A stretch of DNA of 64,000 nucleotides from assembly GCF_009827055.1 (NCBI RefSeq), contig NZ_WUMK01000008.1, forward strand, positions 186,001 through 250,000, given 5' to 3'. Below, in pieces: positions 11,957 to 64,000 of this stretch. The number at the start of each line of letters is the position of its first letter. Positions within the stretch are counted from its first letter, which is position 1. This DNA is from Shinella kummerowiae. GTDB taxonomy: Bacteria > Pseudomonadota > Alphaproteobacteria > Rhizobiales > Rhizobiaceae. A model generated the notes under the pieces. The model was given only the letters and a program-made list of their open reading frames with translations, was not told the origin of the DNA and searched no databases. The position numbers and the translations under genes were made by a program.

Positions 11957-15748
<3,792 letters not shown>

Positions 15749-49762: not shown

Positions 49763-51001
49763 TCAGTCGTCCTCGCCATGGCCGACGATCATCATCGCCT
49801 CGAAGGCCATGCGGTCGACCTTGCGCATGCGCTCGGATTCCGACTTCAGCTGGCCGCAGGCGGCGAGAATGTCGCGGCCGCGCGGGGTGCGGATCGGCGA
49901 GGCATAGCCGGCCTGGTTGATGAAATCGGCGAAACGCTCGATCTGCTCCCAGTCCGAACACTGGTAGTTGGTGCCCGGCCAGGGATTGAACGGGATGAGG
50001 TTGATCTTCGCCGGAATGCCCTTCAGCAGCTGGGTGAGCAGCTTGGCGTCCTCCAGCGAGTCGTTGACGTCCTTCAGCATCACATATTCGAAGGTGATGC
50101 GGCGTGCATTCGACAGGCTCGGATAGGCCCGGCAGGCCTCGAGCAGGTCCTTCAGCGGATACTTCTTGTTGATCGGCACCAGCATGTCGCGCAGGTCGTC
50201 GCGCACCGCATGCAGCGAGATCGCCAGCATGACGCCGATCTCGGAGCCGGTGCGGTAGATTTCCGGCACGATGCCGGAGGTCGACAGCGTCACGCGGCGC
50301 CTGGAGAGCGACAGGCCGTCGCCGTCGGTGGCGATCAGCAGCGCCGTCTTCACGTTCTCGAAATTGTAGAGCGGCTCGCCCATGCCCATCATGACGATGT
50401 TGGAGACCTTGCGGCCTTCGGCCGGCGCAATCATGCCGACCGGCGTGTCGCGGTCGGGGAAATCGCCAAGGCGATCGCGGGCAAGCAGCAACTGGGCGAG
50501 GATTTCCTCGGCCGTCAGGTTGCGCACCAGCTTCTGCGTGCCGGTGTGACAGAAGGAGCAGGTGAGCGTGCAGCCGACCTGGCTGGAAATGCACAGCGTA
50601 CCGCGACCTTCTTCCGGGATATAGACGGTCTCGATCTCGACCGGCCGGCCCGCGCCGCGCGGCGGGAAACGCAGCAGCCACTTGCGCGTGCCATCGGCGG
50701 AAACCTGCTCCTCGACGATCTCCGGACGGGCGATGGTGAAATGCGTCTTCAGCATTTCGCGCATGTCCTTGGAGATATTCGCCATGTCGTCGAAATCGGA
50801 AACACCGCGCACATAGAGCCAGTGCCAGAGCTGGCTGACGCGCATCTTCACCTGCCGCTCGGGAATGCCCTTTTCGGCGAGCGCCCGGCCCATGTCCTCA
50901 CGCGAAAGGCCGATCAGCGACGGCTTTTCCGCGGCGGGAAGGGTGCGGACGACCGGTGCCTTGACGGGATCGGCCGTGTTGAGAAAATCCATGCTTGCCA
51001 T
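49763..51001 (-). CDS. rlmN: Dual-specificity 23S rRNA/tRNA A2503/A37 methyltransferase RlmN
   Basis: 412-residue radical-SAM enzyme that methylates C2 of A2503 in 23S rRNA and A37 of some tRNAs. The iron-sulfur cluster motif CTLTCSFC (CX3CX2C) is near residue 140; [14 protein letters not shown], the SAM-binding LSTSGIVP, and the C-terminal methyl-carrying cysteine in [10 protein letters not shown] are present. ATG 51001 is preceded by GAGGAT; the frame is open to 51136 but the added segment is low-complexity and lacks homology-like features. The 112 bp upstream of it and the LysR gene share the strand but are probably independent. Confidence 0.95.
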
Positions 51002-51129: not shown

Positions 51130-52050
51130 TTAGCATTGTTCTGGCAGAAAGTCACCTGCCTTGCCGGCGCAGACCTCGCGGAAGCACTGGCGCAGCCAGC
51201 GATGCGCCGGATCGGCATCCATCCGCGGATGCCAGAGCATGGAAATGGTGAACTCCGGCAGATCGATCGGCAGCGGAAAACTCGCCATGTCGTCGCGCAG
51301 CGACAGGGTCGAACGGTCCGACACCTGGGCAATCAGGTCGGAATGCCGCGCAAGCGTCACGGCCTCCGCAAAGCTCGCGACGGTCACGGCGACGGTGCGC
51401 GTCAGCCCCATCAGAGCCAGTGCCTCGTCGGCCGGGCCGCGCTCCCGCCTGCCGCGGGACACGAGGATATGGCTGCCCTCAACGTAGCGCTCCGGCGTGA
51501 TCGGGCCGGCGAGCAGCGGGTGCCCCTTGCGCACGACGCCGATGAAACGATCGCGAAACAGCGCCTGCGCGCGCACTTCCGGTCCCGTCGTATCGCCGAT
51601 CACGCCGGTTTCGAGATCGACCGTTCCGTCGCGCAGCGGCGTGCTTTCCTTGTCCGGCTTTGGAACGAAGCGGATTTTCACATGGGGCGCCTCCCGCGTG
51701 AGGCGCGCCAGCAAGGCGGGCCCGAACGTATCGACGAAACCCTCACGGTTGCGGAGCGTAAACGTCCGCGCGAGGGTTGCGAGATCAAGATGCTTTGCCG
51801 GGCGCAACAGCGCTTCGGCTGCCGCAACGACCTGGCCGACCTCGTCACGCAACTCCAGCGCCCGCGGCGTCGGCACCAGCCCCCGTCCGGCGCGCACGAG
51901 CAGCGGATCGCCGGTCACCTCCCGCAACCGCGCGAGCGCACGGCTCATCGCCGAGGGGCTGAGCCGCAGCCTTTGCGCCGCCCGCGCCACATTGCCCTCG
52001 GCGAGCAGCACATCGAGCGTGACGAGAAGATTGAGATCGGGTCGTGACAT
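51130..52050 (-). CDS. LysR family regulator divergent from an MFS pump
   Basis: 306-residue LysR protein starting [20 protein letters not shown] with the helix-turn-helix [20 protein letters not shown] (residues ~22-42). The effector domain is of the PBP2-type ([19 protein letters not shown] linker). It is divergent to the DHA2-type MFS transporter 127 bp away and is the probable regulator of that pump. The intergenic region is AT-richer (around 52100-52120) but no clear T-N11-A box stands out. Confidence 0.9.
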
Positions 52051-52177
52051 GGTCCGATCCTAGCATGCCCGCGAAAAGATGACATGGCGTCAAACGCACG
52101 AATAAAATGCAAATGATGCGTCTTCCGCCTTATCACGCGGAGGACTACCTGCTCTGAGGACCCCAAGGAGCAAAACC

Positions 52178-53572
52178 ATGCACGATACAGAGACCATAAC
52201 GGCGAACCGTCACCGGGCCGGAGCCCTTGCCGGCCTCTCGCTCGCCATCCTCTTGTCCTCCCTCGGCACCAGCATCGCCAATGTTGCCCTGCCGACACTA
52301 GCGGATGTCTTTGCAGCACCCTTCCAGCATGTGCAGTGGGTCGTGCTCGCCTATCTCCTGACCAGCACCGTGCTGATCGCCAGCATCGGCCGCCTCGGTG
52401 ACCTATTCGGCCGACGCCGCCTGTTGCTGGCGGGCCTTGCGGTGTTTTCTGCCGCCTCTTTGCTGGCGGGCCTGTCGCCGTCGCTGCCCCTCCTCATTGC
52501 CGCCCGCGCCGTTCAGGGGGCGGGTGCGGCTGCGATGATGGCGCTTGCCATGGCCTTCGTCAGCGAAACCGTGCCGAAGGAAAGGATCGGCAGCGTCATG
52601 GGCCTGCTCGGCACCATGTCCGCCGTTGGCACAGCGCTCGGCCCGTCGCTCGGCGGTCTGCTGATTTCGGGCTTCGGCTGGCACGCGATCTTTCTCGTCG
52701 CCGTACCTTTCGGCCTGTCCGCCTTCGCCCTCGTCCACCATTTCCTGCCCGACGACCGCAAAGCCGCCACGACCGGCCGTTTCGACCTCGTCGGCGCCGG
52801 CCTGCTGGCAGCAACGCTGGCGGCCTATGCACTGGCGATGACGGTGGGCGAGGGCCGGGTCGGTCCGCTGAATGTCGCGCTCGTCGCCGCCTCGGCCGTG
52901 GGTGCCGGACTCTTCGTGCTTCGGCAACGCCGGATCGCCTTTCCGCTGATCCGGCCTGCCGCCTTCCGCCGTCCCGGTTTTCCCGCAAGCCTTGCGGCGA
53001 ATATCCTCGTTGCGACGGTGATCATGGTGACGCTGGTCGTCGGACCGTTCTACCTGTCGCGCACGCTCGGCCTCGGTCCGGCCCATGTCGGCTTCGTGCT
53101 GGCGATCGGCCCCGTGGTGTCCGTGCTGACCGGTGTTGTTGCCGGACGGTTCGTCGATCGGTTCGGCGCAACACCCATGGTCGCCGCCGGGCTCGCCACG
53201 ATGGTGGCGGGCACTGCTAGCCTGCCCGTGCTGTCCGCCCTGTTCGGCCTTTCCGGCTATATCACGGCGATCGTCGTACTCACGCCCGGCTACCAGCTCT
53301 TCCAGGCCGCCAACAATGCAGCCGTCATGACGGGCGTTCCCGCAGAGGAGCGCGGCATCACATCAGGCCTGCTCAACCTGTCGCGCAATCTCGGCCTGAT
53401 CACCGGCGCCTCGCTGATGGGCGCGATCTTTACGCTCGCCGTCGGCACGAAGGACATGATGGGCGCCAGCGCGCCGGCCGTCGCAACCGGCATGCATGTC
53501 ACCTTCGCCGTGGCCGCCGTCTTGCTGCTGGCCGCGCTCACTCTTGTGCGCGGCGTCAAGCGCAAGGCCTGA
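52178..53572 (+). CDS. MFS drug efflux transporter (DHA2-like)
   Basis: 464-residue inner-membrane protein with 12-14 helices. The motif WVVLAYLLTSTVLIASIGRLGDLFGRRRLLL (residues ~49-79) contains the family A-motif GRLGDLFGRRR, and motif C-like GLLGTMSAVGTALGPSLGG lies near 147, both typical of proton-driven multidrug exporters. The divergent LysR gene is probably its regulator. ATG 52178 has AAGGAG just upstream. An 11-bp terminator hairpin follows. Confidence 0.9.
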   Translation: MHDTETITANRHRAGALAGLSLAILLSSLGTSIANVALPTLADVFAAPFQHVQWVVLAYLLTSTVLIASIGRLGDLFGRRRLLLAGLAVFSAASLLAGLSPSLPLLIAARAVQGAGAAAMMALAMAFVSETVPKERIGSVMGLLGTMSAVGTALGPSLGGLLISGFGWHAIFLVAVPFGLSAFALVHHFLPDDRKAATTGRFDLVGAGLLAATLAAYALAMTVGEGRVGPLNVALVAASAVGAGLFVLRQRRIAFPLIRPAAFRRPGFPASLAANILVATVIMVTLVVGPFYLSRTLGLGPAHVGFVLAIGPVVSVLTGVVAGRFVDRFGATPMVAAGLATMVAGTASLPVLSALFGLSGYITAIVVLTPGYQLFQAANNAAVMTGVPAEERGITSGLLNLSRNLGLITGASLMGAIFTLAVGTKDMMGASAPAVATGMHVTFAVAAVLLLAALTLVRGVKRKA

Positions 53573-53579
53573 AACGACA

Positions 53580-53605
53580 AGACCTCCGCCGAACGGCGGA
53601 GGTCT
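53580..53605. terminator. Intrinsic terminator between MFS pump and purU
   Basis: AGACCTCCGCC and GGCGGAGGTCT form a perfect 11-bp stem with loop GAAC, 7 bp after the MFS stop codon and 41 bp after the purU stop on the other strand. There is little T-run, so it may work as a bidirectional barrier of moderate strength. Confidence 0.8.
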
Positions 53606-53646
53606 CTCCAGAACACAGCAAACCGGCCTCGACAGCCTTCGTTCGA

Positions 53647-54531
53647 TCAGCCCATGCGCTCGGAAGCGTAGGAACCGGGGCTCGGCGGGAAGACGATGGT
53701 CTTGTTGCCGTTCATGAAGGTGCGGTGGTGGATATGCGCATGCACCGCACGGGCAAGCACCTGGCTCTCCACATCCCGGCCGATCGACACATAGTCCTCC
53801 GCCGACTGCGCATGCGTGATGCGCGCCACATCCTGCTCGATGATCGGACCCTCGTCGAGATCCTCCGTCACATAATGCGCCGTAGCACCAATCAGCTTCA
53901 CGCCGCGCTCGAACGCCTGCTTATACGGATTTGCCCCCTTGAACGACGGCAGGAACGAGTGGTGGATGTTGATGATCCGGCCCGACATCTTCTTGCACAC
54001 CGCATCCGACAGAACCTGCATGTAACGGGCGAGCACGATCAGTTCGGCACCGGACTGCTCCACCACCTCCATCAGGCGGGCTTCGGCCTGCGGCTTGTTC
54101 TCCTTCGTCACCTTGATGTGGTGGAAGGGGATGTCGTGGTTGACGATGACCTTCTGGTAATCGAAGTGGTTCGACACGACGCCGACGATGTCGATCGGCA
54201 GCGCGCCGATCGTCCAGCGATAGAGCAGGTCGTTCAGGCAATGGCCGAAGCGCGACACCATCAGCAGCACCTTCATGCGCTCGTCGCTGTCGTTGAAGCG
54301 ATAGGTCATGCCGAAGGGCTTGGCGACCGGAGTGAAGCCCTGCTTGATGTCCTCCTCCGAAACACCTTCTTGGCTGAGGAAGGTCAGGCGCATGAAGAAC
54401 AGGCCCGTTTCCAGGTCGTCGAACTGCGAACTGTCGGAGATGTAACACCCCTTCTCGGCGAGGTAGCCGGTGATCGCGGCGACGATGCCGCGGGTCGATT
54501 GGCACGATACTGTCAGGACGTGGCTTTTCAT
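53647..54531 (-). CDS. purU: Formyltetrahydrofolate deformylase
   Basis: 294-residue cytoplasmic enzyme hydrolysing 10-formyl-THF to THF and formate, balancing one-carbon pools and feeding PurT. It has an N-terminal ACT domain (VLTVSCQSTRGIVAAITGYLAEKG) and a C-terminal formyltransferase-type domain with the catalytic Asn-His-Asp set in INIHHSFLPSFKG and GATAHYVTEDLDEGPIIEQD. ATG 54531 gives the family N-terminus (MKSHVLTVSC); the frame opens 12 codons earlier without a ribosome site. Confidence 0.96.
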   Translation of the reverse strand: MKSHVLTVSCQSTRGIVAAITGYLAEKGCYISDSSQFDDLETGLFFMRLTFLSQEGVSEEDIKQGFTPVAKPFGMTYRFNDSDERMKVLLMVSRFGHCLNDLLYRWTIGALPIDIVGVVSNHFDYQKVIVNHDIPFHHIKVTKENKPQAEARLMEVVEQSGAELIVLARYMQVLSDAVCKKMSGRIINIHHSFLPSFKGANPYKQAFERGVKLIGATAHYVTEDLDEGPIIEQDVARITHAQSAEDYVSIGRDVESQVLARAVHAHIHHRTFMNGNKTIVFPPSPGSYASERMG

Positions 54532-54844
54532 CGGTTCGTTTCTCGCGTTCGGCCGATGCTGGGGCAAGCACCGGCGATCCCCTTGTCATGCGGGCCGCAC
54601 GTGCGGCACGGCGCATATTTCAGTCCGCTTGCGCCAGCGCAAGCCCCTGCAATGGCGAGAAGCTACGCCGCCTCTTGCAAGGAATCCCTCCGGTTCGCGA
54701 CATCCAGTGCGTCGAAAATGCCAACGGTGCCGTTCCAAGGCGTCGTTCGCCTCGCGCCGCCGTTCCGCATGAGCCCGCGTGAAAGGCCGCCGCATCGAAT
54801 CTTTCACGGATGCAAGCCCGCCTGCCGTGCCGCCAAAATCCATC
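54532..54844. other. Intergenic region between purU and the TIM-barrel gene
   Basis: About 310 bp with no supportable gene. ORFs on both strands here are short, with no family-like sequence. The purU promoter (minus strand) must lie here. No riboswitch fold was recognised in front of purU. Confidence 0.5.
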
Positions 54845-54882
54845 TGGACACTATTGTGGACACATGTTCTAAGAATTGGACA
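54845..54882 (+). promoter_or_regulatory. Triple TGGACA repeat in front of the TIM-barrel gene
   Basis: TGGACA occurs at 54845, 54857 and 54877, the last two flanking an imperfect dyad (ATGTTC ... TGGACAT, 54863-54883). The block is AT-rich within GC-rich DNA and ends 19 bp before the ATG at 54902, as expected for an operator-promoter region. The regulator is unknown; none is encoded nearby in the window. Confidence 0.4.
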
Positions 54883-54901: not shown

Positions 54902-56086
54902 ATGCACCTTTCCATGTGGACCTACCCCTGGGACATCCAGGACCAGGGGCTCGAGACGCTTGCCGCCGATCTTGCCGGCCGGGCCGGCCTCAACACGGTG
55001 AGTGTGGCGACCTCCTACCATGCAGGCCGCTTCCTCCAGCCGCGCAGCCCGAGCCAGAAGGCCTATTTCCCGGAAGACGGCACCGTCTATTTCCGCCCGG
55101 ACGACACGCTCTGGCAGGACAAGGTGATCCGCCCACTGGTGGCGCAGAACGTTCTCGATCGCGGCGACATGGTGGACGCGCTGACGACGGCGCGTGAAAC
55201 GACCGGCCTGAAGGTTTCCTGCTGGACCGTCTGCCTGCACAACAGCCGCCTCGGCCTGCTGCACCCCGACCACGTGACCCGCAACGCCTTCGGCAACGCC
55301 AACTACTACAATCTCTGCCCGTCGAGCCCGGCGGCGCGCGACTATGTCGTGACCCTCGTGCGTGACATCACGACGAACTACCGGCCGGATATGCTGGAAC
55401 TCGAAAGCCCCAATTTCATGGGCTTCGCGCATGAATACCACCATGAGAAGGACGGCGTCGGCCTCACCGCCGAGGACGATTTCCTGCTCTCGCTATGCTT
55501 CTGCGACCATTGCACCGCACGCGCTGAGAAAGCCGGCGTGCCGGTGGAAGGCGCCCGAAAGACGGTCGCCCGTTTCATTGCCGAACTGTGCGAGCGGGCC
55601 GTGCCCGAAAAACAGTTTCCCGATTTTCCCGCGGCCGGCATCGATGCCTTCCGCGCACATCCCGATCTTCACGCCTTCCTGGTCTGGCGCTTCGAACCGG
55701 TAACCAGCCTGATCGGCGAGATCAAGGCGGCCGCCGACCCGGCGACGCGCATCGTGCTGATCGACCTCAAGGACGGCTGGCTCGGCGGGGTCGACCTTGC
55801 AGCCGTGGCAAAGCTCTGCGACGGCGCGATCCTCTGCTGCTACGACATGACGCCCGAGGCCGTCGCCGATGTCATGCGCACCGGCCGCGCCCTGCTTGGC
55901 TCGGAAAAGTTCTTGGGCCTGGGCCTGCGCGTCTTCTATCCCGAAGTCGACGGGCCGGCGATCCTGGCCGCCCGCGCCAAGGCCGCCGTCGAGGCCGGTG
56001 CCGACGGCGTGAACTTCTACAACTACGGCCTCATTCCGGCAAAACGCCTCGACTGGGTCCGCGCGGCGGTCGACGCGATCACCTGA
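54902..56086 (+). CDS. Uncharacterised TIM-barrel protein, glycoside-hydrolase-like
   Basis: 394 residues, no signal peptide. It starts MHLSMWTYPWDIQDQG. The stretch YRPDMLELESPNFMGFAHEY and then LLSLCFCDHCTARAEKAG look like the FCxHC cysteine cluster and acidic barrel strands of several uncharacterised glycosidase-like TIM barrels; RIVLIDLKDGW and GADGVNFYNYGL fit late barrel strands. I cannot name a substrate. GGAG lies 8 bp before the ATG, and the operator-like repeats are upstream. It converges on the end of the ABC/deacylase operon (18 bp apart), and may act on the same compound. It could instead be an isomerase or epimerase-like barrel. Confidence 0.7.
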   Translation: MHLSMWTYPWDIQDQGLETLAADLAGRAGLNTVSVATSYHAGRFLQPRSPSQKAYFPEDGTVYFRPDDTLWQDKVIRPLVAQNVLDRGDMVDALTTARETTGLKVSCWTVCLHNSRLGLLHPDHVTRNAFGNANYYNLCPSSPAARDYVVTLVRDITTNYRPDMLELESPNFMGFAHEYHHEKDGVGLTAEDDFLLSLCFCDHCTARAEKAGVPVEGARKTVARFIAELCERAVPEKQFPDFPAAGIDAFRAHPDLHAFLVWRFEPVTSLIGEIKAAADPATRIVLIDLKDGWLGGVDLAAVAKLCDGAILCCYDMTPEAVADVMRTGRALLGSEKFLGLGLRVFYPEVDGPAILAARAKAAVEAGADGVNFYNYGLIPAKRLDWVRAAVDAIT

Positions 56087-56104
56087 TCGCGACGACAGCT
56101 GTCC

Positions 56105-57118
56105 TCACCCGTCGATCGGCTCGGCGACCTGGATCAGGCAGTCGCCGGCCTGGCTGTCGCAATGCAGACGATGGGAGATGACGATGCCGCCTTCGGCAAA
56201 ACGCAGCTCCTCCTCCGGCTGCTCCAGCCGTTCGAGATCGTGATACCAGCCGGCACGGTCGCCGACCGCGACCCGTGTTCCGAGTGCGACAGCCGGCTCG
56301 AACCAGCCGCGGCGATTGGCATAGATGCCCTGACTGTGCCGTGACAGCGAGAGAAGCTGTAACGCCGGCGGCGCCGGCAGGGATGCGCGCGACAGCACGG
56401 GAGCCTGGACGATGCCGAGCGCCACGAGCAGGCGGTCGATCGCCCCGGCCGTGAACGCCATGGTCTCCGGTGTCACCGTGCCCCCGCCACCGAACTCGCC
56501 CGAAAGGCCGATCGCCCCGGCCCGGCCCGCTGCCCCCATCGAAGTCGGTGCTGCCGGCCCGTTGTCGGCGATGAAGGCATGCGCGGCACCCATGGCCCGC
56601 ATCAGCGAGACGGCGCGGGCAAAACGCGCGGCATCCGCCTGCCGCTCGATCAGTGTGCAGGGCAGATGCGCCATGGAGGTGCCACCCGAATGCAGATCGA
56701 GCACCACGTCGTGCGCCGGGAAAAGCACGTGTTCGAGGAAATGTGCCATCCGCGCCGTCGGCGTGCCGGCCGGATCGCCGGGAAAGGCGCGGTTGAGATT
56801 GCCGCCGTCGAAGGGCGAGCAGCGCTTCGCCGCCATCACTGCCGGCAGGTTCGCCATCGGCAGGATGGTGACGGCGCCGCGGATCTTGCCGATGTCGAGC
56901 AGACGCATCAGCCGCCCGAGCTGGAGCTCACCTTCATATTCATCGCCATGATTGCCGGCGATCAGCAGCAGGCTCGGCCCCTCACCGTTCCTGAGGCGCA
57001 AGATCGGTACGCGGATCTGATAATAGGGCGAACGGTCGATCGAATAGGGAATAGCAAGATGGCCGGACTGCCGGCCTTCCTGCGCAAAATCGATCGGGTT
57101 GACGAGGCCGCTGTGCAT
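56105..57118 (-). CDS. Succinylglutamate desuccinylase/aspartoacylase family zinc deacylase
   Basis: 337-residue cytoplasmic carboxypeptidase-fold hydrolase. Zinc ligands His57 and Glu60 are in AGNHGDEYEGE and a third His in DLHSGG; PFDGGNLNRAFPGDP is the usual substrate loop (Asn-Arg). Relatives remove acyl groups from N-acyl amino acids; DoeB of ectoine breakdown is one type. It is the last gene of the operon, 10 bp after ridA. A role in freeing the amino group of the imported compound is inferred from context. Confidence 0.85.
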   Translation of the reverse strand: MHSGLVNPIDFAQEGRQSGHLAIPYSIDRSPYYQIRVPILRLRNGEGPSLLLIAGNHGDEYEGELQLGRLMRLLDIGKIRGAVTILPMANLPAVMAAKRCSPFDGGNLNRAFPGDPAGTPTARMAHFLEHVLFPAHDVVLDLHSGGTSMAHLPCTLIERQADAARFARAVSLMRAMGAAHAFIADNGPAAPTSMGAAGRAGAIGLSGEFGGGGTVTPETMAFTAGAIDRLLVALGIVQAPVLSRASLPAPPALQLLSLSRHSQGIYANRRGWFEPAVALGTRVAVGDRAGWYHDLERLEQPEEELRFAEGGIVISHRLHCDSQAGDCLIQVAEPIDG

Positions 57119-57128
57119 GATGCGCCTC

Positions 57129-57473
57129 TCAAAGCGCCGCGACGGCGGTCATTTCGACGCGCAGGTCGGGATCGGCAAGGCGCGCCTCGACACAGGCGCG
57201 GGCCGGCGGGTTCGCCGGGTCGATCCAGGCATCGTAGACGCCGTTCATGGCATCGAAATCGACGATCGCCGGCAGGAAGACATTGACGGCAAGCAGCTTC
57301 GAACGGTCGGTGCCGGCCTCCGTCAGCAGGGCGTCGATCTTGCCGAGCACGTCGCGCGTCTGGTCCTCGATGGCGGCCTTGCGGTCTTCCGCAACCTGGC
57401 CGGCAATATAGACGAGCCCGCCGAAGCTGACGGCCTGGCTCATGCGCGAGCCCTTCTGATAGCGCTGGATCAT
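57129..57473 (-). CDS. RidA/YjgF family enamine/imine deaminase
   Basis: 114-residue protein of the RidA family, short by about 10-15 residues compared with E. coli RidA. It retains the conserved arginine in NPPARACVEARL and the N-terminal FGGLVYIAGQVAED. RidA proteins hydrolyse reactive enamine/imine products of PLP dehydratases to 2-oxo acids. Its neighbour upstream is a fold-III PLP enzyme of exactly that type, a strong functional hint. It lies 10 bp before the deacylase gene and 36 bp after the PLP enzyme. Confidence 0.9.
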   Translation of the reverse strand: MIQRYQKGSRMSQAVSFGGLVYIAGQVAEDRKAAIEDQTRDVLGKIDALLTEAGTDRSKLLAVNVFLPAIVDFDAMNGVYDAWIDPANPPARACVEARLADPDLRVEMTAVAAL

Positions 57474-57509
57474 AGCGTGTTTTCCTTTTTTTGCCTTGGG
57501 AGGAGGGGG

Positions 57510-58823
57510 TCAGCCGAAGCTGGTGAGATAGGCGGTCACGACCCTGTGGTCCGGGTCGAGGCCGTAGAGGATGGCGTGCCGGTCGAGGCAGGTGCAGGGA
57601 TGCGAAATGCCGAACTCGACCACGTCGCCGATGGCCACATCGCTGCCGGCGGGCAGGGTCACGAAGGCGTGCTGGTCGTTGAGGCGCAGCACGGCGGCAC
57701 CGATGAAATCGGCGCGGCGCGCGCCGTCCCGATAAAGCGCAAGCGGCCGCGGCAGGCCCTGGTCGATCGCCACGTCGCGGAGGCCCATGCCGCAGATTGC
57801 AAGCCCCGGCTCGGGCCGCGACAGCACCTCGGCCCAGACCCGCAGCGCCGGCTTGAAGCCCTCTGATGCCGCGTGCGTCGTTTCTCCGAAGCGGAAACCG
57901 CCGCGCGCGTCGAGACCGGCAAGGCCGCGTTCATAAACGCCGTGATCGTGGAAGAAGATCGCCCCGCTGCGCAGCACCAGGCGGCAATCCGGATCGGCCG
58001 AGACCGCTGCCGAAAGCCCGGCCACGACCCTGTCGAAAAACACCGAGCCGCCTGCCGTCAGAATAAGTGGTCGCTCGCCGCCGATTCGGGCTCGGACAGT
58101 TGGCAGGAAGGCCGCCGTCATGGTGACCAGCCCGTCGATCCGAAGCAGGGTTTCATCGGCATCCGCCGTCGCAGCAGCGCCCTCATAGGCGGCGATGCCG
58201 GTCAGACGGAAGTTCGGCGTCTCGGCCGCAAGGATGGCGTCGACAATCGCGCCCGCCGCCTCAGGATCGCGCGCTCCGGCGCGTCCGGCCCCCAGTTCCA
58301 CCATCAGGCCGAGCGACGGCAGATCGTCGCGCCCGCGCCAGGCGGCGGCCAGTGCGGCGGCGAGCGGGACGGAATCGACGAAGACATGCACCTCCGCATC
58401 GGGATAGCAGGCAAGCAAGGTGGCCAGCCGGCGTGCGGCGGCAAGGCCGCCGATCTCGTTGGCAAGCATCAGCCGGCGCTGGCCGGCCTTCAGCATCACC
58501 GCGGCCTGGCGGATATCCGCAACCGTCGTGCCCCAGGCGCCGGCCGCCAGCAGCGCAGCGGCAATCGCCGTCGACATCGGCGTCTTGGCATGCGGGGCGA
58601 TGTCGACGCCATGATCCTTCACATAGGCCATCATCAGATCGATATTGCCGGCGAAAGCCTGCTGGTCGAGCGAGATCAGCGGCAACGCCATCGCACCGTC
58701 ATAGGGTTTCCAGCCCTGCTCGCCGAGTGCCGCGAGCGGCAGGGGCGCATGTCCCGGCGGAAAACCGCGAATGCGGTCGTCGATCAGCGGATTGTCGGCG
58801 CCATTGGCGTGAAGGTCAGACAT
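57510..58823 (-). CDS. Fold-III PLP enzyme: D-threonine aldolase / D-serine dehydratase-like
   Basis: 437-residue alanine-racemase-fold enzyme. The PLP lysine is Lys80 in IAPHAKTPMS, and the metal-binding pair His-x-Cys near the C-terminus is visible as SHPCTCLD, as in metal-dependent D-serine dehydratase and D-threo-hydroxyaspartate dehydratase (DSD1 group). It should eliminate water from, or retro-aldol cleave, a beta-hydroxy D-amino acid. Automatic annotation would probably be amino acid deaminase. The 5' end overlaps the amidohydrolase gene by 8 bp. The adjacent ridA suggests a dehydratase that releases an enamine. Confidence 0.85.
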   Translation of the reverse strand: MSDLHANGADNPLIDDRIRGFPPGHAPLPLAALGEQGWKPYDGAMALPLISLDQQAFAGNIDLMMAYVKDHGVDIAPHAKTPMSTAIAAALLAAGAWGTTVADIRQAAVMLKAGQRRLMLANEIGGLAAARRLATLLACYPDAEVHVFVDSVPLAAALAAAWRGRDDLPSLGLMVELGAGRAGARDPEAAGAIVDAILAAETPNFRLTGIAAYEGAAATADADETLLRIDGLVTMTAAFLPTVRARIGGERPLILTAGGSVFFDRVVAGLSAAVSADPDCRLVLRSGAIFFHDHGVYERGLAGLDARGGFRFGETTHAASEGFKPALRVWAEVLSRPEPGLAICGMGLRDVAIDQGLPRPLALYRDGARRADFIGAAVLRLNDQHAFVTLPAGSDVAIGDVVEFGISHPCTCLDRHAILYGLDPDHRVVTAYLTSFG

Positions 58824-59772
58824 GGTTTTCTCCTTCGCCCGAGGCAGGATCGTTCATCCCGAGGCGGTAGGTATCGTTGGCGGTGGTGAAGAAGAGGGCC
58901 CGCTGCTCATCGATAGAGAGCGGAGCAGCAACGGCGCGGAAAACGTCGTAGACCTCGTCGAAAGAAGCGTGCAGGCCGGCGACGGGAAAATCGCTGGCAA
59001 ACATCGACCGCTCCGGCCCAAAACAGTCGAGGCAGTGCTCGATCACCGGGCCAAGGCTTCCGGGCGTCCAGGCATTGTCGTAGGCGACGAGGTCGGAGAT
59101 CTTCAGGCGGACATTCGGCTGCCTGCCGAGCGCACGAAGGCCGCTGCGCCAGAGCGCCATGCCGCCCTCCGTACGATCGGCCGGGCTGCCGCCGTGGTTG
59201 AGCACGAAGAGCGTATCGGGAAAGGCACCCACCAGGTCGAGCGCCTCGACCATCTGCCAGGGATAGAGCATGAGATCGAAGACCAGGCCGAGCCTTGAGG
59301 CATGGCCCAACCCGGCCCGCCAGACGGGATCGACCATCCGATAGGCGCGCGCGGCAAAACTCTTTGCCGGCTCAGGATGCCAGCTGACGATGTCGCGGAT
59401 GCCAACCACGTTAGGATTGTCCGCTTCCGCATCGAGCAACCGAAACGCCTCGGGACTATCGAGGGGAACACGCACAACATAGCGCCTCGCCACGCCGGAA
59501 CTGCGATCGAGGCCGTCCAGCCAGCGGCTTTCCTCGAGTGGATGGGCATCCGACCAGCCTGCCTCGACATGCACGGTGGCGACCACGTTCTGGTTTGCGG
59601 CATCGGCACGGTAGTCCGCGATGCCATAGTCGCGCAGGATCGGTACGAGGCTGCCGAAAACCATCTCCTCGCCGGCGATGTGCGCCTTTTCCAGCCAGGG
59701 ATGGCGTTTCAGCGACAGGTCCCAGAGATGATGATGCGGGTCGATCGCCGGCCCGTCGTACCGCCCCGTCAT
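58816..59772 (-). CDS. Amidohydrolase family 2 protein (lactonase-like TIM barrel)
   Basis: 318-residue TIM-barrel hydrolase. The N-terminal metal motif AIDPHHHLWDL (H13-x-H15) and the late DFPVAGLH and FASDFP aspartate are typical of the amidohydrolase_2/L-fuconolactonase group. It probably opens a lactone, lactam or cyclic imide of the imported compound. The ATG at 59772 overlaps the end of the permease gene (59769) as ATGA. The longer open frame to 60756 is antisense noise of the permease. Confidence 0.87.
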   Translation of the reverse strand: MTGRYDGPAIDPHHHLWDLSLKRHPWLEKAHIAGEEMVFGSLVPILRDYGIADYRADAANQNVVATVHVEAGWSDAHPLEESRWLDGLDRSSGVARRYVVRVPLDSPEAFRLLDAEADNPNVVGIRDIVSWHPEPAKSFAARAYRMVDPVWRAGLGHASRLGLVFDLMLYPWQMVEALDLVGAFPDTLFVLNHGGSPADRTEGGMALWRSGLRALGRQPNVRLKISDLVAYDNAWTPGSLGPVIEHCLDCFGPERSMFASDFPVAGLHASFDEVYDVFRAVAAPLSIDEQRALFFTTANDTYRLGMNDPASGEGENHV

Positions 59773-60725
59773 CGTCGCGCCTCGCGGCCGGATACCAGCA
59801 GAAGCGACAGGATCAACGTGCCGAACATGATGGAGCGCCAGCCGGGTGAGGCATTGACGACGGTGATCAGCGCCGTCGTGGTGACAAGCAGGATGGCGCC
59901 GGGAATGGTGCCAGCATAGGTGCCGCGCCCACCGAGGATGGAGGTGCCGCCGAGCACGACGGCAGCGATCGACGTCAGCAGATAGGGATCGCCGATGCCG
60001 ACATAACCCTGCCGGTTCATGCCAAGCACCAGAATGCCGGCAAGGCCCGCGAAGAAGCCGGACAACGCATAGAGGATCAGCGTGTTGCGCGCCACGCTGA
60101 CCCCGGACAGGCGGGCGGCGAGCGGGTTTGCGCCGAGCGCCAGGAACCGTGCGCCGATCGGCATGCGGTGGATGATGAGCAGCACGGCCGCCGAAACCAC
60201 GAGCCAGAGCAGGATGCCGGCCGGAACCCCGAGCGGTCTTGCCTGCCCCAAGAGAAGCACGGCGGGATTGCTGACGGTGACCGCGCTGCCGCCGGCGACG
60301 ACGACAAGCAGGCCTTGCAGGAAGGTCGCCATGGCAAGCGTCATGATGATCGGCGGCACACGCAGATAGGCAGCACCCGCACCATTGAGGAAGCCGATGC
60401 CGGTGGCGATCGTCAACGCGAGGGCGACACCAACAAGGCCGGTCGGATCCCAGGCGGGCGAAATCAGCGGCACGAGGATCGCCGTGACGGTGATGACCGC
60501 GCCGACCGAAAGGTCGATGCCGCCCATCAGGATCACGAGCGTCTGGCCGGCGGCGGCAATGCCGATGACGGCGGCAAGCTCCAGCAGATAGCGCAGGTGC
60601 CCATAGGCGCCGAAGCCGCTCAGCGTGAGGCCGGCAACCAGCCAGACGAGCGCCACAAGAACGAGGGTGAGCAGCGGCGGATTGCGGAACAGGGATTTGA
60701 CGGCCTTCATCGCCTGGCTCTCCAC
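59769..60725 (-). CDS. Sugar-type ABC transporter permease (RbsC-like), second
   Basis: 318-residue inner-membrane permease of the BPD_transp_2 family with about ten helices; IDLSVGAVITVTAILVPLIS near residue 70 and GGTSILGGRGTYAGTIPGA near 255 are the standard RbsC motifs. It overlaps the upstream permease gene by 19 bp, so both are made together as a heterodimer channel. The substrate is not necessarily a sugar: the same permease class imports purines, polyols and autoinducer-2. Confidence 0.92.
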   Translation of the reverse strand: MESQAMKAVKSLFRNPPLLTLVLVALVWLVAGLTLSGFGAYGHLRYLLELAAVIGIAAAGQTLVILMGGIDLSVGAVITVTAILVPLISPAWDPTGLVGVALALTIATGIGFLNGAGAAYLRVPPIIMTLAMATFLQGLLVVVAGGSAVTVSNPAVLLLGQARPLGVPAGILLWLVVSAAVLLIIHRMPIGARFLALGANPLAARLSGVSVARNTLILYALSGFFAGLAGILVLGMNRQGYVGIGDPYLLTSIAAVVLGGTSILGGRGTYAGTIPGAILLVTTTALITVVNASPGWRSIMFGTLILSLLLVSGREARR

Positions 60726-61672
60726 TGCTTGAGAAGTTCCGGCACCGCAACGGCACCGACGATGATGAGGCCCTGCGCGATGTATTGCGCGACCGGCGGG
60801 AAGCCGAGGAAGAACATCACGTTGATCATCACCGACAGCAGCAGGCTGCCGCAGACCGCCCCGCGCATCGTGCCCTTGCCGCCGAGGAAACCGACGCCGC
60901 CGAGCACCGCCGCGGCAATCGAGTTGAGCGTGAAGGGCGCGCCGATGACCGGATCACCCGAACCGGTCTGCGCGGCGACAAAGAGCCCCGCCAGTGCGGT
61001 CAGCAGGCCGGACAGCGCGAAGGCGGCGATCTTCACCCGCTCGACCGGCACGCCGGAGCGGAAGGCGCCGATCGGATTGTCGCCCGCCGCATAGATGCCG
61101 AGGCCGAGCGGCGTCGCCAGAAACACCTTCCACAGAAGCAGGATGAGGACGAGCAACAGGAAGGCGACGGGTGTGTGGCCGGCAAGCCCGGTGGAGAGCC
61201 AGCCGGGAATAAAACCGCCCGGGCGTGGCAGAAGAAGCAGCGCCACGCCGGTGATGATGAAGGAGCCGGCCAGCGTGACGATGATCGCCGGCAGGCGCAG
61301 TTGCGCCACGATGACGCCGATGACGGCGCCGATGCCAAGGCCGGTCAAGGCGACGGCGAGAATGCCGCCCGGCACGCCGAACACGCCGCCCATGGTGGTT
61401 GCCGCGATCACCGCGCCGAGACTGACGAGCGGGCCGATCGCCAGCGTGATGCCGCCGTTTAGCATCAACAGCGCCTGGGCCATGGTGACGAGCGCCAGCG
61501 GGAACCAGTTCTGCGTGAACTTGGAAAAGCCGCCGACCGAAAGGATGCCCGGGAAGAGCACGACATAAAGCACGAGGAAGGCGGCGACGACGAGGTAGAG
61601 ACCGCCAAGGCCGCGATTGCGACGGCTTTGGATGGCACCGTACAGCCAGCCGGAGGACGAAACAGCGCTCAT
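60707..61672 (-). CDS. Sugar-type ABC transporter permease (RbsC-like), first
   Basis: 321-residue permease. The motif LMLNGGITLAIGPLVSLGAV near residue 68 replaces the usual GGIDLS element with GGITLA, while AAVLGGVGFLGGKGTMRGA near 236 is standard. It pairs with the adjacent permease and the ATPase upstream (4-bp ATGA overlap). Confidence 0.92.
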   Translation of the reverse strand: MSAVSSSGWLYGAIQSRRNRGLGGLYLVVAAFLVLYVVLFPGILSVGGFSKFTQNWFPLALVTMAQALLMLNGGITLAIGPLVSLGAVIAATTMGGVFGVPGGILAVALTGLGIGAVIGVIVAQLRLPAIIVTLAGSFIITGVALLLLPRPGGFIPGWLSTGLAGHTPVAFLLLVLILLLWKVFLATPLGLGIYAAGDNPIGAFRSGVPVERVKIAAFALSGLLTALAGLFVAAQTGSGDPVIGAPFTLNSIAAAVLGGVGFLGGKGTMRGAVCGSLLLSVMINVMFFLGFPPVAQYIAQGLIIVGAVAVPELLKQWRARR

Positions 61673-63177
61673 GCGGCCGCTCCCTTTCGATCGACGCCCA
61701 TGGCCGCGCCGACAATGGCCTCTTCGCTGATAGCGTCACCGACAAGGGTCGCGGCGACATGGCCCTCGCGCAGCACGACGACGCGGTCGCACAGATGCAC
61801 GAGTTCCGGCGTATCGGAGCTGGCGAGGATGATGAGCCGCCCTTCGGCGGCGAAGGCGCGCAGCATCAGGTAGATCTCCCGTTTGGTCTCGATATCGACG
61901 CCGCGTGTCGGGTCGTTGAGCAGCAACACGGAGGGATCGAGCGGCAGCCATTTGGCGAGCGCCACCTTCTGCTGGTTGCCGCCGGACAGCGCCTGAACCG
62001 GGCGGGCGACGTCGCCCTTGATGGTGAGCCGGCGCGCCAGATCGGCGATGAGGCCGGTCTCCGCCGGACGGTCGCGAAACCCGTTGCGCGCGAGCCGGCC
62101 GAGCGAAGGCAGGATGAGGTTCGATGCGATGGAATGGGGCAGGACCAGCCCCTCATGTTTGCGGTCGGCCGGCACATAGACGAGGCCGGCGGCATTCGCC
62201 GCGCCGACATCCGCGGGCAAGCCGGATTTTCCGGAAACCTCCGCGCTGGAGGCCTTGGCCGGGATCGCTCCATAAAGGCCCAGCAGCAGATCTTCCTGCC
62301 CCTGCCCGACAAGCCCGCCGATGCCGACGATTTCGCCGGCGCGGGCAGAGAAGGCGATGTCGCGCACGAGGCCTGCGGAAAAACCCGTAACGTCCACGCG
62401 CGGCGCGCCGGGCGTGCAGGCCGGGCGCGGCGGAAAGAGGTCACCCGTCTCGCGGCCGACCATCAGGCGCACCAGCCCTTCACCATCGATACCCGATAGC
62501 GACTGGTCCGCCGTGACACCGCCGTCCTTCAGCACGGTGACATGCGCGCAGAGCGCCTGCACCTCGTTGAGGCGGTGGGAAATGTAGAGAAGTGCTGTGC
62601 CGCGGTCCCGCAGCATCTCGATGACGCCGGCCAGAATGCCCGCCTCATGGGCGGAAAGCGAGGAGGTCGGCTCATCGAGGATGAGCACACGCGGCTTGCG
62701 GAACAGCGCCTTGGCGATCTCCACCATCTGGCGACGGCCAAGGGCGAGATCGGCAACCGGCATGTCGAGCGGCTCGGTCAACCCCACCATGGCGCAGACC
62801 TCTCGCACACCACGGTGCAGGGCTGCATAGTCGATCAGGCCGAAGCGGCGCGGGAAGGCGCCGAGCCCGATGTTTTCAGCAATCGACAGGTCGGCGGTGA
62901 GGCTGAGTTCCTGCTGCACCACGGCGATGCCGGCCGCGCGGGCGGTGGCCGGGCTGAAACGCCCGACCGGCCGACCGTCGACGGCAATCGCGCCGCTATC
63001 CGGCTGGAGAGCGCCGGAAAGAAGATTGATGAGTGTGGACTTTCCAGCGCCGTTCTCCCCCAGCAGGGCGTGCACCCTGCCGGGATGAAGGGCGATATCG
63101 ACGCCCTTCAGAACGGGATTGCCGAAAAATCCCTTGAACACCTGCCGGGCCTCCAGCAGGGGTTTTTTGTCCGTCAT
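61669..63177 (-). CDS. Sugar-type ABC transporter double ATPase (RbsA/MglA-like)
   Basis: 502-residue protein with two fused ATPase domains. The first has a full Walker A GENGAGKSTLINLL (near residue 42) and LILDEPTSSLS; the second has the usual degenerate P-loop (GGLVGQGQEDLLLGL) but an intact LSGGNQQKVALAKWL and LLLNDPTRGVD. This asymmetry is normal for RbsA. ATG 63177 has AAGGA 7 bp upstream; a GTG at 63192 also fits. It follows the binding-protein gene by about 20 bp. Confidence 0.93.
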   Translation of the reverse strand: MTDKKPLLEARQVFKGFFGNPVLKGVDIALHPGRVHALLGENGAGKSTLINLLSGALQPDSGAIAVDGRPVGRFSPATARAAGIAVVQQELSLTADLSIAENIGLGAFPRRFGLIDYAALHRGVREVCAMVGLTEPLDMPVADLALGRRQMVEIAKALFRKPRVLILDEPTSSLSAHEAGILAGVIEMLRDRGTALLYISHRLNEVQALCAHVTVLKDGGVTADQSLSGIDGEGLVRLMVGRETGDLFPPRPACTPGAPRVDVTGFSAGLVRDIAFSARAGEIVGIGGLVGQGQEDLLLGLYGAIPAKASSAEVSGKSGLPADVGAANAAGLVYVPADRKHEGLVLPHSIASNLILPSLGRLARNGFRDRPAETGLIADLARRLTIKGDVARPVQALSGGNQQKVALAKWLPLDPSVLLLNDPTRGVDIETKREIYLMLRAFAAEGRLIILASSDTPELVHLCDRVVVLREGHVAATLVGDAISEEAIVGAAMGVDRKGAAA

Positions 63178-63197
63178 GACGGCATCCTTCACGCGGA

Positions 63198-64000
63198 TTA
63201 CTGGGCGAGCAGCTTGTCGAACAGCGCCTTGTCGTAATCCGAGTAGATGTAACCGTCGGCCGGGAACTTGTCGGCACGGGCGAGGTAGCTATCGATCGTG
63301 CTGTCGTCGATGACCGGCAGCGGCACCCTGATGAAGGCCGGCACGTCCTTGCCTTCCAGCGCCTGCACGGCCGTATAGACCGAGAATGCGCCGAGCCAGT
63401 TCGGCTGCATGGTGGCCCAGCCCTTCAGGCCCTTTTCCTTCCACAGTTCGAGGAACTGGCGGGCGTTCTCGCCGGTGATCGGCACCTGCTCGCGACCCTG
63501 GCGGTCGAAGGCCATGACGGAACCGGCCGAGATTGCGCCGCCGAGCGACAGCACGCCGTCGATTTCCGGATTGGCGAAGAGCAGGCTGGTCATCGCTTCC
63601 TGTGCGGGGGCAGCGTTGTATTCGGTGTTCGTCTCGGTGATGATTTCGAGACCCGGATTGGCGTCGAGCACCGGCTGGGCACCCTTGCGGCGGTCGTCGC
63701 TGACGGAAATGCCGGCCGGGCCGTTCATGACGATGATCTTGCCCTTGCCGCCGAGCTGCTCGGACAGCCACTTGGCGGCGCCCGCACCCCATTCGGCGGA
63801 ATCGGTGTTGATCTTCGCCGTCACCTTGTCGGTGTTGACGAGGCTGTCGAAGTTGACGACGGCGATACCCTTGTCGCAGGCGTCCGAAATCACGCGGTCG
63901 AGCGCATTGGACGAGCCGGCGATGATGACGATGGCGTCGACATTGGCGTCGATCATCGACTGGATGTGCTGGATCTGCGTCTGCGCATTGCCCTGCGCGT
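63198..64000 (-). CDS. Sugar-type ABC transporter substrate-binding protein (5' partial)
   Basis: C-terminal ~266 residues of an RbsB-like type-1 periplasmic binding protein; the N-terminus, signal peptide and promoter lie beyond the window end. Recognisable segments are IQSMIDANVDAIVIIAGSSNAL (split: IQSMIDANVD, AIVIIAGSSN), GAAKWLSEQLGGKGKIIVMNGPAG and the C-terminal IDSYLARADKFPADGYIYSD. It supplies the specificity for the importer encoded downstream. The ligand is not predictable. Confidence 0.92.
   Translation of the reverse strand, partial: AQGNAQTQIQHIQSMIDANVDAIVIIAGSSNALDRVISDACDKGIAVVNFDSLVNTDKVTAKINTDSAEWGAGAAKWLSEQLGGKGKIIVMNGPAGISVSDDRRKGAQPVLDANPGLEIITETNTEYNAAPAQEAMTSLLFANPEIDGVLSLGGAISAGSVMAFDRQGREQVPITGENARQFLELWKEKGLKGWATMQPNWLGAFSVYTAVQALEGKDVPAFIRVPLPVIDDSTIDSYLARADKFPADGYIYSDYDKALFDKLLAQ

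Follow-up and report, generated by a model that had tools for sequence, protein, structure and literature searches.

A co-regulated gene set of Shinella kummerowiae and its relatives that probably takes up and degrades oxidised, acylated amino sugars

We analyzed a 64,000-nucleotide stretch of the 6.34-Mb genome of Shinella kummerowiae (bases 186001-250000 of contig C40), referred to here as the window, and focused on a catabolic locus at its end. Eight genes form one tight minus-strand operon that runs from position 56105 to beyond position 64000 and is transcribed in the order binding protein, ATPase, permease 1, permease 2, Amidohydro_2 protein, pyridoxal phosphate (PLP) enzyme, RidA and AstE/AspA-family deacylase (Table 1). 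An earlier note on this DNA had proposed that at least eight minus-strand genes join an RbsABC-like importer to several enzymes in one overlapping operon. All of these genes were recovered close to where it had placed them, each with an open reading frame, and the word ‘overlapping’ is nearly right, since neighbouring genes overlap at four of the seven joints and are separated by a short gap at the other three (5, -4, -19, -4, -8, 36 and 10 bases in transcription order). The Pfam matches are AstE_AspA_cat, Ribonuc_L-PSP, D-ser_dehydrat with Ala_racemase_N, Amidohydro_2, BPD_transp_2 (twice), ABC_tran and Peripla_BP_4. The transporter has the make-up of a CUT2 importer, with an RbsB-like binding protein, an ATPase that matches full-length AraG/RbsA models and two BPD_transp_2 permeases; the Protein Data Bank holds many sugar-binding relatives of the binding protein, none near enough to name its ligand. 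The binding-protein gene crosses the end of the window, and its likely ATG lies in the wider contig at extended coordinate 64268 (L002:11769). Beyond it, and outside the window, is a divergent gene for an IclR-type regulator with IclR_C and HTH_IclR matches.

Table 1. Features of the catabolic locus, in window coordinates, with the basis of each assignment
Feature	Coordinates	Strand	Basis
RbsB-like substrate-binding protein (Peripla_BP_4), 3’ part inside window	63198..64000	-	Pfam, wider contig
CUT2-type sugar ABC transporter ATPase, AraG/RbsA-like, GTG start	61669..63192	-	Pfam, NCBIfam
ABC permease 1 (BPD_transp_2)	60707..61672	-	Pfam
ABC permease 2 (BPD_transp_2), GTG start	59769..60725	-	Pfam
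Amidohydro_2 protein, sugar-lactonase-like	58816..59772	-	Pfam, NCBIfam below cut-off
Fold-III PLP enzyme, D-serine-dehydratase/OngC-like	57510..58823	-	Pfam, motifs, tree
RidA family imine/enamine deaminase	57129..57473	-	Pfam (Ribonuc_L-PSP)
AstE/AspA-family deacylase	56105..57118	-	Pfam, NCBIfam below cut-off
Unclassified TIM-barrel protein, 394 aa, glycoside-hydrolase-like fold, convergent with operon	54902..56086	+	predicted fold
Operator-like 36-bp inverted repeat, 20 bases upstream of TIM-barrel ATG	54846..54881	.	weight matrix

The gene neighbourhood proved to be that of a conserved system. Nine aligned PLP enzymes served as the query against the named genomes and gave 234 relatives, of which we kept the best 80; a match was counted only if it covered at least 45% of the query and reached a minimum identity, set at 45% for the parts of the importer and at 30-35% for most other proteins. 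The nearest named relatives of the PLP enzyme are from Shinella, several at 81-84% identity. Among the best 80 of the 234, which are related loci skewed to Rhizobium and Mesorhizobium and do not give independent counts, 72 also hold the CUT2 importer, 73 AstE, 72 RidA, 70 the lactonase-like Amidohydro_2 protein, 69 the TIM-barrel protein and 63 IclR, and there are 10 with an OngB-like D-aminoacylase and 15 with a PAAT binding protein. Within the 72 CUT2 loci the lactonase is present in 69, AstE in 70, RidA in 70 and the TIM barrel in 68. The complete eight-gene order on one strand recurs in 42 of the 72, which argues that the grouping is beyond chance; in 29 of the other 30 the lactonase gene is inverted or missing and/or RidA or AstE is missing or moved, and the remaining locus (L128) deviates by a second RidA match. 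The description of the transporter as a sugar-type importer holds for this locus, but relatives with the same enzyme kinds use a PAAT importer in place of CUT2 (L029-L033, L175, L186, L199, L200 and L205).

In a separate sample of 297 genomes drawn evenly from the order, a PLP homologue at E <= 1e-60 was present in 20, of which seven were of the CUT2 type and five of a variant with the PLP enzyme, a PAAT importer, RidA and AstE. An eighth genome (G050, locus L088) carries the importer, lactonase, AstE and TIM barrel, with no PLP gene at that threshold. PLP homologues also occurred in 191 plasmid records, 114 of them at 60% identity or above. The same gene order lies on pRL10 of R. johnstonii 3841 (RL_RS29475-29520), and the PAAT variant is present in Agrobacterium fabrum C58. 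The current annotation of these genes reads alanine racemase, amidohydrolase or hypothetical protein.

Co-regulation of the gene set is suggested by a 36-bp inverted repeat between the IclR and binding-protein genes, which was first spotted by eye and then tested in a search that permitted spacers of 5 to 40. The repeat was found in 59 of 64 regions, that of S. kummerowiae included, always with an 18-bp spacer, compared to 1 of 1280 base-shuffled controls and none of 63 ATPase genes. No palindrome of 6-8 bases in the regulatory region recurred widely, the best being present in 13 of 64. We searched the 80 loci (1,618,202 positions) with a weight matrix whose training set excluded the S. kummerowiae genome. 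At a threshold of 10 bits, 65 sites lay in the region between IclR and the binding-protein gene, 33 before the TIM-barrel gene, one upstream of a PAAT binding protein (L148) and one with no called gene nearby (L125), the last being probably that locus’s own importer site; reversed sequence gave one site. Two further sites precede PLP genes that stand without the operon, 197 bases away in Phyllobacterium (L151:9759) and 5 bases away in Paramesorhizobium (L160:9930), and the operator kept there suggests that the PLP enzyme may have a separate function. The importer-region matches are partly circular because most of those sites trained the matrix; the sites upstream of the TIM-barrel gene were absent from the training set.

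A site precedes the binding-protein gene in 66 of the 72 CUT2 loci, comprising all 63 with IclR and three of the nine without it (L162, L191 and L196). The six CUT2 loci that have no site all lack IclR; five of them carry a LacI gene (L134, L154, L167, L169 and L197) and one neither (L165), and these loci are a natural control for the link between IclR and the operator. Sites were also present in 33 of the 39 loci with the TIM-barrel gene on the opposite strand (at a distance of 341 bases in L157), with none upstream of that gene in L134, L158, L159, L161, L178 and L194. The best site of the window scored 14.9 bits, the next -11.4 and the best in the reversed window -5.2, and its partner, upstream of the binding-protein gene, falls a little past the window end at extended coordinates 64320-64355 (L002:11821-11856). 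The operator common to the importer operon and the TIM-barrel gene indicates that the latter very probably belongs to the regulon. The earlier note had allowed that the enzymes might not be co-regulated with the transporter; the shared operator points the other way. We infer from these sequence comparisons that IclR itself binds the operator. The regulator shares 56% identity with the IclR proteins encoded next to PLP and RidA genes in L103 and L118, from genomes with only the phylum in common, and in L103 the same operator type lies upstream of a PAAT importer (17.8 bits). The PLP enzymes of L103 (D-aminoacylase, PAAT importer, RidA, IclR, PLP) and L118 (KdgK, PLP, IclR, RidA) are 35-36% identical to that of S. 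kummerowiae, but in the stretches examined neither locus showed a CUT2 importer, a lactonase, AstE or this type of TIM barrel.

The TIM-barrel protein had no Pfam or NCBIfam match at E <= 0.001, and the Pfam family GHL10 scored 10.7 bits against a cut-off of 27.9. A GHL10 match at E <= 1 was obtained for 29 of its 37 aligned members, the best at 1.2e-6, and a GHL6 match for 13, the best at 6e-4; comparison of the profile with solved structures by sequence returned nothing credible (best E 0.13). The AlphaFold2 model, with a mean predicted confidence (pLDDT) of 89.8, has a glycosidase-type (beta/alpha)8 fold. Its fold matches are mostly glycoside hydrolases, including Cwp19, the C-terminal glycoside hydrolase of PgaB, GH42 and GH156, from all of which it differs, at 10-16% identity among the 50 matches listed. 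Residues D11, H113, E168, E182, C199, C201 and C204 are invariant in 37 of 37 members, and no signal peptide was apparent by eye. On the predicted fold, the product looks like a glycosidase-like protein; the earlier description of an unrecognised TIM-barrel protein thus stands as to its convergence on the operon and gives way to a modelled glycoside-hydrolase-like fold. Members of this family also occur in a second conserved cluster (L089-L097 and L194) with a short-chain dehydrogenase/reductase (SDR), Gfo/Idh/MocA oxidoreductases and an NMT1-type importer, often with RpiR and D-aminoacylase genes, plus a protein of about 111 aa that had no Pfam or NCBIfam match in L194.

The best solved relative of the PLP enzyme is 3gwq (E 6e-55), with D-threonine aldolase and BhcC-type enzymes far weaker (about 1e-16). 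Its PHxKT and HPC motifs, which we take to hold the PLP lysine and the metal ligands, occur in 64 of the 64 rows examined (SHPC in 61, GHPC in three). Outside its own operon type, 23 loci with PLP homologues at 30-46% identity carry an ong-type D-aminoacylase in 16 cases, RidA in 16, RpiR in 15, a kinase of the 2-keto-3-deoxygluconate (KDG) type in nine and an aldolase of the 2-keto-3-deoxy-6-phosphogluconate type in seven.

For the deacylase, the closest named family is that of the N-acetyl-diaminobutyrate deacetylase DoeB/EutE of ectoine degradation, but the score for DoeB (TIGR02994), its best NCBIfam match, is 198.6 bits against an equivalog cut-off of 402.7, and no ectoine genes were recognised beside AstE here. 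Among solved structures it matches 6twm at E 1.6e-44, and 3cdx, which bears the family name only, is closer. Residues H57, E60, H143 and E208 are invariant in 8 of 8 sequences, and the protein presumably keeps the metal-site residues of its family. Ten of the 72 CUT2 relatives carry a gene that matched the D-aminoacylase of L026 used as query, which is homologous to PpOngB (9kb1, E 1.9e-70). The only CUT2 loci without AstE (L155 and L184) are both among those ten (Fisher p 0.018, rows not independent), and in both the OngB-type gene directly follows RidA. The presence of an OngB-type D-aminoacylase in the place of AstE is the best evidence that AstE may remove the N-acyl group from the same intermediate. 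The S. kummerowiae genome itself has no D-aminoacylase orthologue (best E 2.7e-6, partial).

The Amidohydro_2 protein resembles the L-fucono-1,5-lactonase family, its sole NCBIfam match (NF052480), but scores 88.9 bits against a cut-off of 400. H13, H15 and D261 are invariant in 7 of 7 sequences, and the DxHxH-type start and an SDxPV stretch are common with 4dlf, which we take to be an L-fucono-1,5-lactonase (the record itself says Amidohydrolase 2). Of the three CUT2 loci that lack the lactonase, two (L155 and L178) hold a gene for a metallo-beta-lactamase-fold hydrolase, whereas none of the 69 others does (p 0.001 if rows were independent). A 46% PLP relative in L099 is accompanied by an SDR, an SMP-30/gluconolactonase and a Peripla_BP_4 importer.

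We consider it reasonably probable that the substrate class is an N-acyl-2-amino-2-deoxy-aldonic acid or its lactone, that is, an amino sugar oxidised at C1, which would be degraded to a 2-keto-3-deoxy-aldonate. As a single compound, N-acetylglucosaminic acid or its lactone (GlcNAc1A) is the most likely candidate, and we name it tentatively; it is described as an equilibrium mixture of lactone and acid (PMC12017989). Every reaction of the pathway, like its substrate, is one that we infer. The CUT2 importer would take up the lactone, the acid or a small glycoside thereof, and the TIM-barrel protein would cleave off the sugar if the substrate were a glycoside. The Amidohydro_2 protein would open the lactone and the AstE/AspA-type enzyme would remove the N-acyl group. 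The fold-III PLP enzyme could then eliminate water from the D-configured 2-amino-3-hydroxy acid, and RidA would hydrolyse the resulting enamine/imine to the 2-keto-3-deoxy-aldonate and ammonia. Kinase and aldolase genes elsewhere in the genome may complete the route, the candidates being a KdgK-like kinase (38% identity, C1:840113) and two PF01081 aldolases, and IclR would regulate the operon. Uptake, lactone opening, deacylation and dehydration with deamination had been proposed in this order before; it remains the best-supported order, and what the comparative data back are single steps of it (the D-aminoacylase of L155 and L184 and the metallo-beta-lactamase-fold hydrolase of L155 and L178).

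The enzyme set as such was not found described in the open-access full-text literature. The earlier statement that no named pathway with such a set was known leaves out of account the ong pathway for GlcNAc1A, in which a related PLP dehydratase works with RidA and a deacylase (PMC9537276). Pseudoalteromonas is reported to convert GlcNAc1A to KDG by means of OngB, a D-aminoacylase-type deacetylase, and OngC, a fold-III PLP D-amino-acid deaminase; OngD, a RidA protein, is required for growth on GlcNAc1A, its role being given as unknown (PMC9537276). The ong cluster of Pseudoalteromonas prydzensis resembles the present operon in combining a deacylase, a fold-III PLP dehydratase and RidA on an unphosphorylated, N-acyl amino acid-like route with a dedicated importer, a regulator and a glycosidase or glycosidase-like protein (PMC9537276, PMC12017989). 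The parts differ. A CUT2 ABC importer stands against the SSS transporter, IclR against RpiR, an AstE/AspA deacylase against the D-aminoacylase OngB, a GHL-like TIM barrel with no GH20 match against the GH20 protein OngA, and a kinase elsewhere in the genome against KdgK in the cluster; the lactonase is extra here, and the PLP enzymes belong to separate clades. Only the RidA gene was found in common within the cluster; an OngC-clade PLP enzyme, an OngB-type deacetylase, the SSS transporter, RpiR, GH20 OngA and a clustered KdgK were not. The operon would function in the manner of the ong pathway without belonging to it.

Several observations weigh against an amino-aldonate route. In a PLP tree rooted at midpoint only, with the Pseudoalteromonas OngC not among its rows, the enzyme falls within a 39-row clade (100/100) apart from a 13-row ong-type clade (100/100); the ong-type side also takes in 12 more rows, many of them from different gene neighbourhoods. 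Rows about 80% or more identical to a kept row were left out, as were L166 and L203 (<380 aa). The enzyme is 30-37% identical to the ong-type rows, and the separate, fully supported clades make it, judged by the tree, a relative of OngC and not an orthologue. The 11.7-kb stretch of L118 has IclR, PLP and RidA genes without an operator site (best -18.1). The PLP gene occurs without importer, lactonase, RidA and AstE in the stretches examined of L135, L150, L151, L160 and L194 (L150 and L194 being short contigs), so that the enzyme may serve alone. The replacement patterns of deacylase and lactonase amount to two loci each. Both genes are missing from L155 and L184, which indicates that the importer can occur without the lactonase, and no obvious substitute for the lactonase is present at the L184 locus. 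The operon itself holds no kinase or aldolase gene, and in the open-access full-text literature we found no published test of any enzyme of exactly this set. Finally, a search for AA10 lytic polysaccharide monooxygenases (PF03067) found none in 13 genomes that carry this locus or a related one, that of S. kummerowiae and 12 more, other families of these monooxygenases and chitinases not having been searched. Self-supply of GlcNAc1A from chitin is therefore unlikely, and the compound would be scavenged.

The neighbouring genes at 51130-54567 of the window, named by eye as encoding a LysR-type regulator, an MFS transporter and a PurU-like protein, lie outside the system; below position 50995 the window was covered by the operator scan only. 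Genes for a flavoprotein and a PurU-like formyltetrahydrofolate deformylase flank the PLP gene alone in Shinella daejeonensis (L135, 8638-12524), where the rest of the operon is missing, and the same two flanking genes, again named by eye, are present in the S. kummerowiae locus at L002:1148-2032 and 12789-14003.

The reported activity of OngC on D-serine and D-threonine (PMC9537276) also counts against an amino-aldonate substrate and keeps another one in play, an N-acyl-D-amino acid with a 3-hydroxy group (of the N-acyl-D-serine, -threonine or 3-hydroxyaspartate type) that AstE would deacylate, the PLP enzyme dehydrate and RidA finish. The PAAT importers that take the place of CUT2 in the relatives named above would suit such a compound, as would the D-aminoacylase family to which the replacement of AstE belongs. 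However, it leaves the CUT2 importer (72 of 80 loci) and the lactonase-like protein (69 of 72) without a role, a gluconolactonase accompanies the PLP enzyme in L099, and the co-regulated TIM barrel is glycosidase-like; we consider this substrate unlikely, though worth weighing. It is improbable, to a similar degree, that the substrate is some other lactone-forming acylated amino compound not yet thought of. Partners are swapped freely in relatives: a Klebsiella pneumoniae plasmid (L201, 5152-13679) has no annotated AstE in the stretch examined and combines a 45% PLP relative and RidA with a PAAT importer and with a hydantoinase/oxoprolinase A+B pair, which suggests a cyclic-amide substrate for that variant, and L027 has PTE and creatininase family genes. 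A D-configured 2-amino-3-hydroxy-acid intermediate is needed regardless, however, and amino-aldonates supply one.

Very improbable, in our view, is the possibility that the operon scavenges the 2-aminogluconate or lactone of rhizobial lipid A, in which case the TIM barrel would cut the beta-1,6 glucosamine linkage and the lactonase, deacylase and dehydratase would deal with the rest. The nearest folds of the TIM barrel include PgaB, a hydrolase of beta-1,6-linked glucosamine/N-acetylglucosamine. Rhizobium lipid A is described as having a beta-1,6 disaccharide with 2-aminogluconate in equilibrium with its lactone (PMC5769089). A periplasmic binding protein of R. leguminosarum 3841, pRL100415 (37.92 kDa, pI 5.17), is listed among the proteins quantified in four-week pea bacteroids in a proteomic report (PMC7105596). 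For the orthologous binding protein RL_RS29480 of R. johnstonii 3841 the calculated mass is 37,921.7 Da and the calculated pI 5.17; this agreement suggests that the two are the same protein; two other binding proteins computed from the same stretch do not fit. Against a lipid A source, a candidate for the lipid A oxidase LpxQ was found in 14 of the 297 genomes of the order, in one (G281) of the seven with the CUT2 operon and PLP gene, and not in the S. kummerowiae genome. Self-recycling of lipid A was rejected because of that absence, which also indicates that the operon is independent of the cell’s own aminogluconate. Identification of the LpxQ candidate relied solely on where one published primer fell, with three mismatches; the other primer was unmatched, and in Pfam and NCBIfam it gave an outer-membrane barrel or weak PorG match only. 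Mesorhizobium loti has been described with diaminoglucose in its lipid A, yet several Mesorhizobium species have the operon, and no part of the operon obviously acts on long fatty acyl chains.

It is equally hard to credit that this is a hydroxyectoine, beta-hydroxyaspartate or other known catabolic operon under another name, since the scores of AstE for DoeB (198.6 bits), of the PLP enzyme for BhcC, its only NCBIfam match (82.2), and of IclR for BhcR, its second-best match (65.1), are far under the respective cut-offs of 402.7, 690 and 350 bits, which led us to reject the beta-hydroxyaspartate and ectoine routes, and no aminotransferase, second PLP dehydratase or ectoine hydrolase-type partner was found among the Pfam classes of the operon.

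Returning to the amino-aldonate route, it is possible, although doubtful, that rhizobia and their relatives have a second, separately assembled oxidative amino-sugar pathway, placed under one IclR operator and made in nodules, with three new activities. These would be an AstE/AspA-type carbohydrate de-N-acylase, an Amidohydro_2 amino-aldonolactonase and a new cytoplasmic glycoside hydrolase family acting on glycosides of C1-oxidised amino sugars, none of which we found described for these families in the open-access full-text literature. In the boldest form of the same proposal, the nodule substrate would be the aminogluconolactone of rhizobial lipid A.

Taken together, the gene set probably imports and dismantles oxidised, acylated amino sugars in soil and root-nodule bacteria. 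An operon of many Rhizobium, Shinella and Mesorhizobium genomes that carries generic annotations becomes a testable pathway with named substrates, and the TIM-barrel protein is, on its modelled fold, a probable new glycosidase family whose regulon is built-in evidence of co-function. The pathway would add soil and symbiotic bacteria to the chitin-degrading marine bacteria in which amino sugars are broken down oxidatively.

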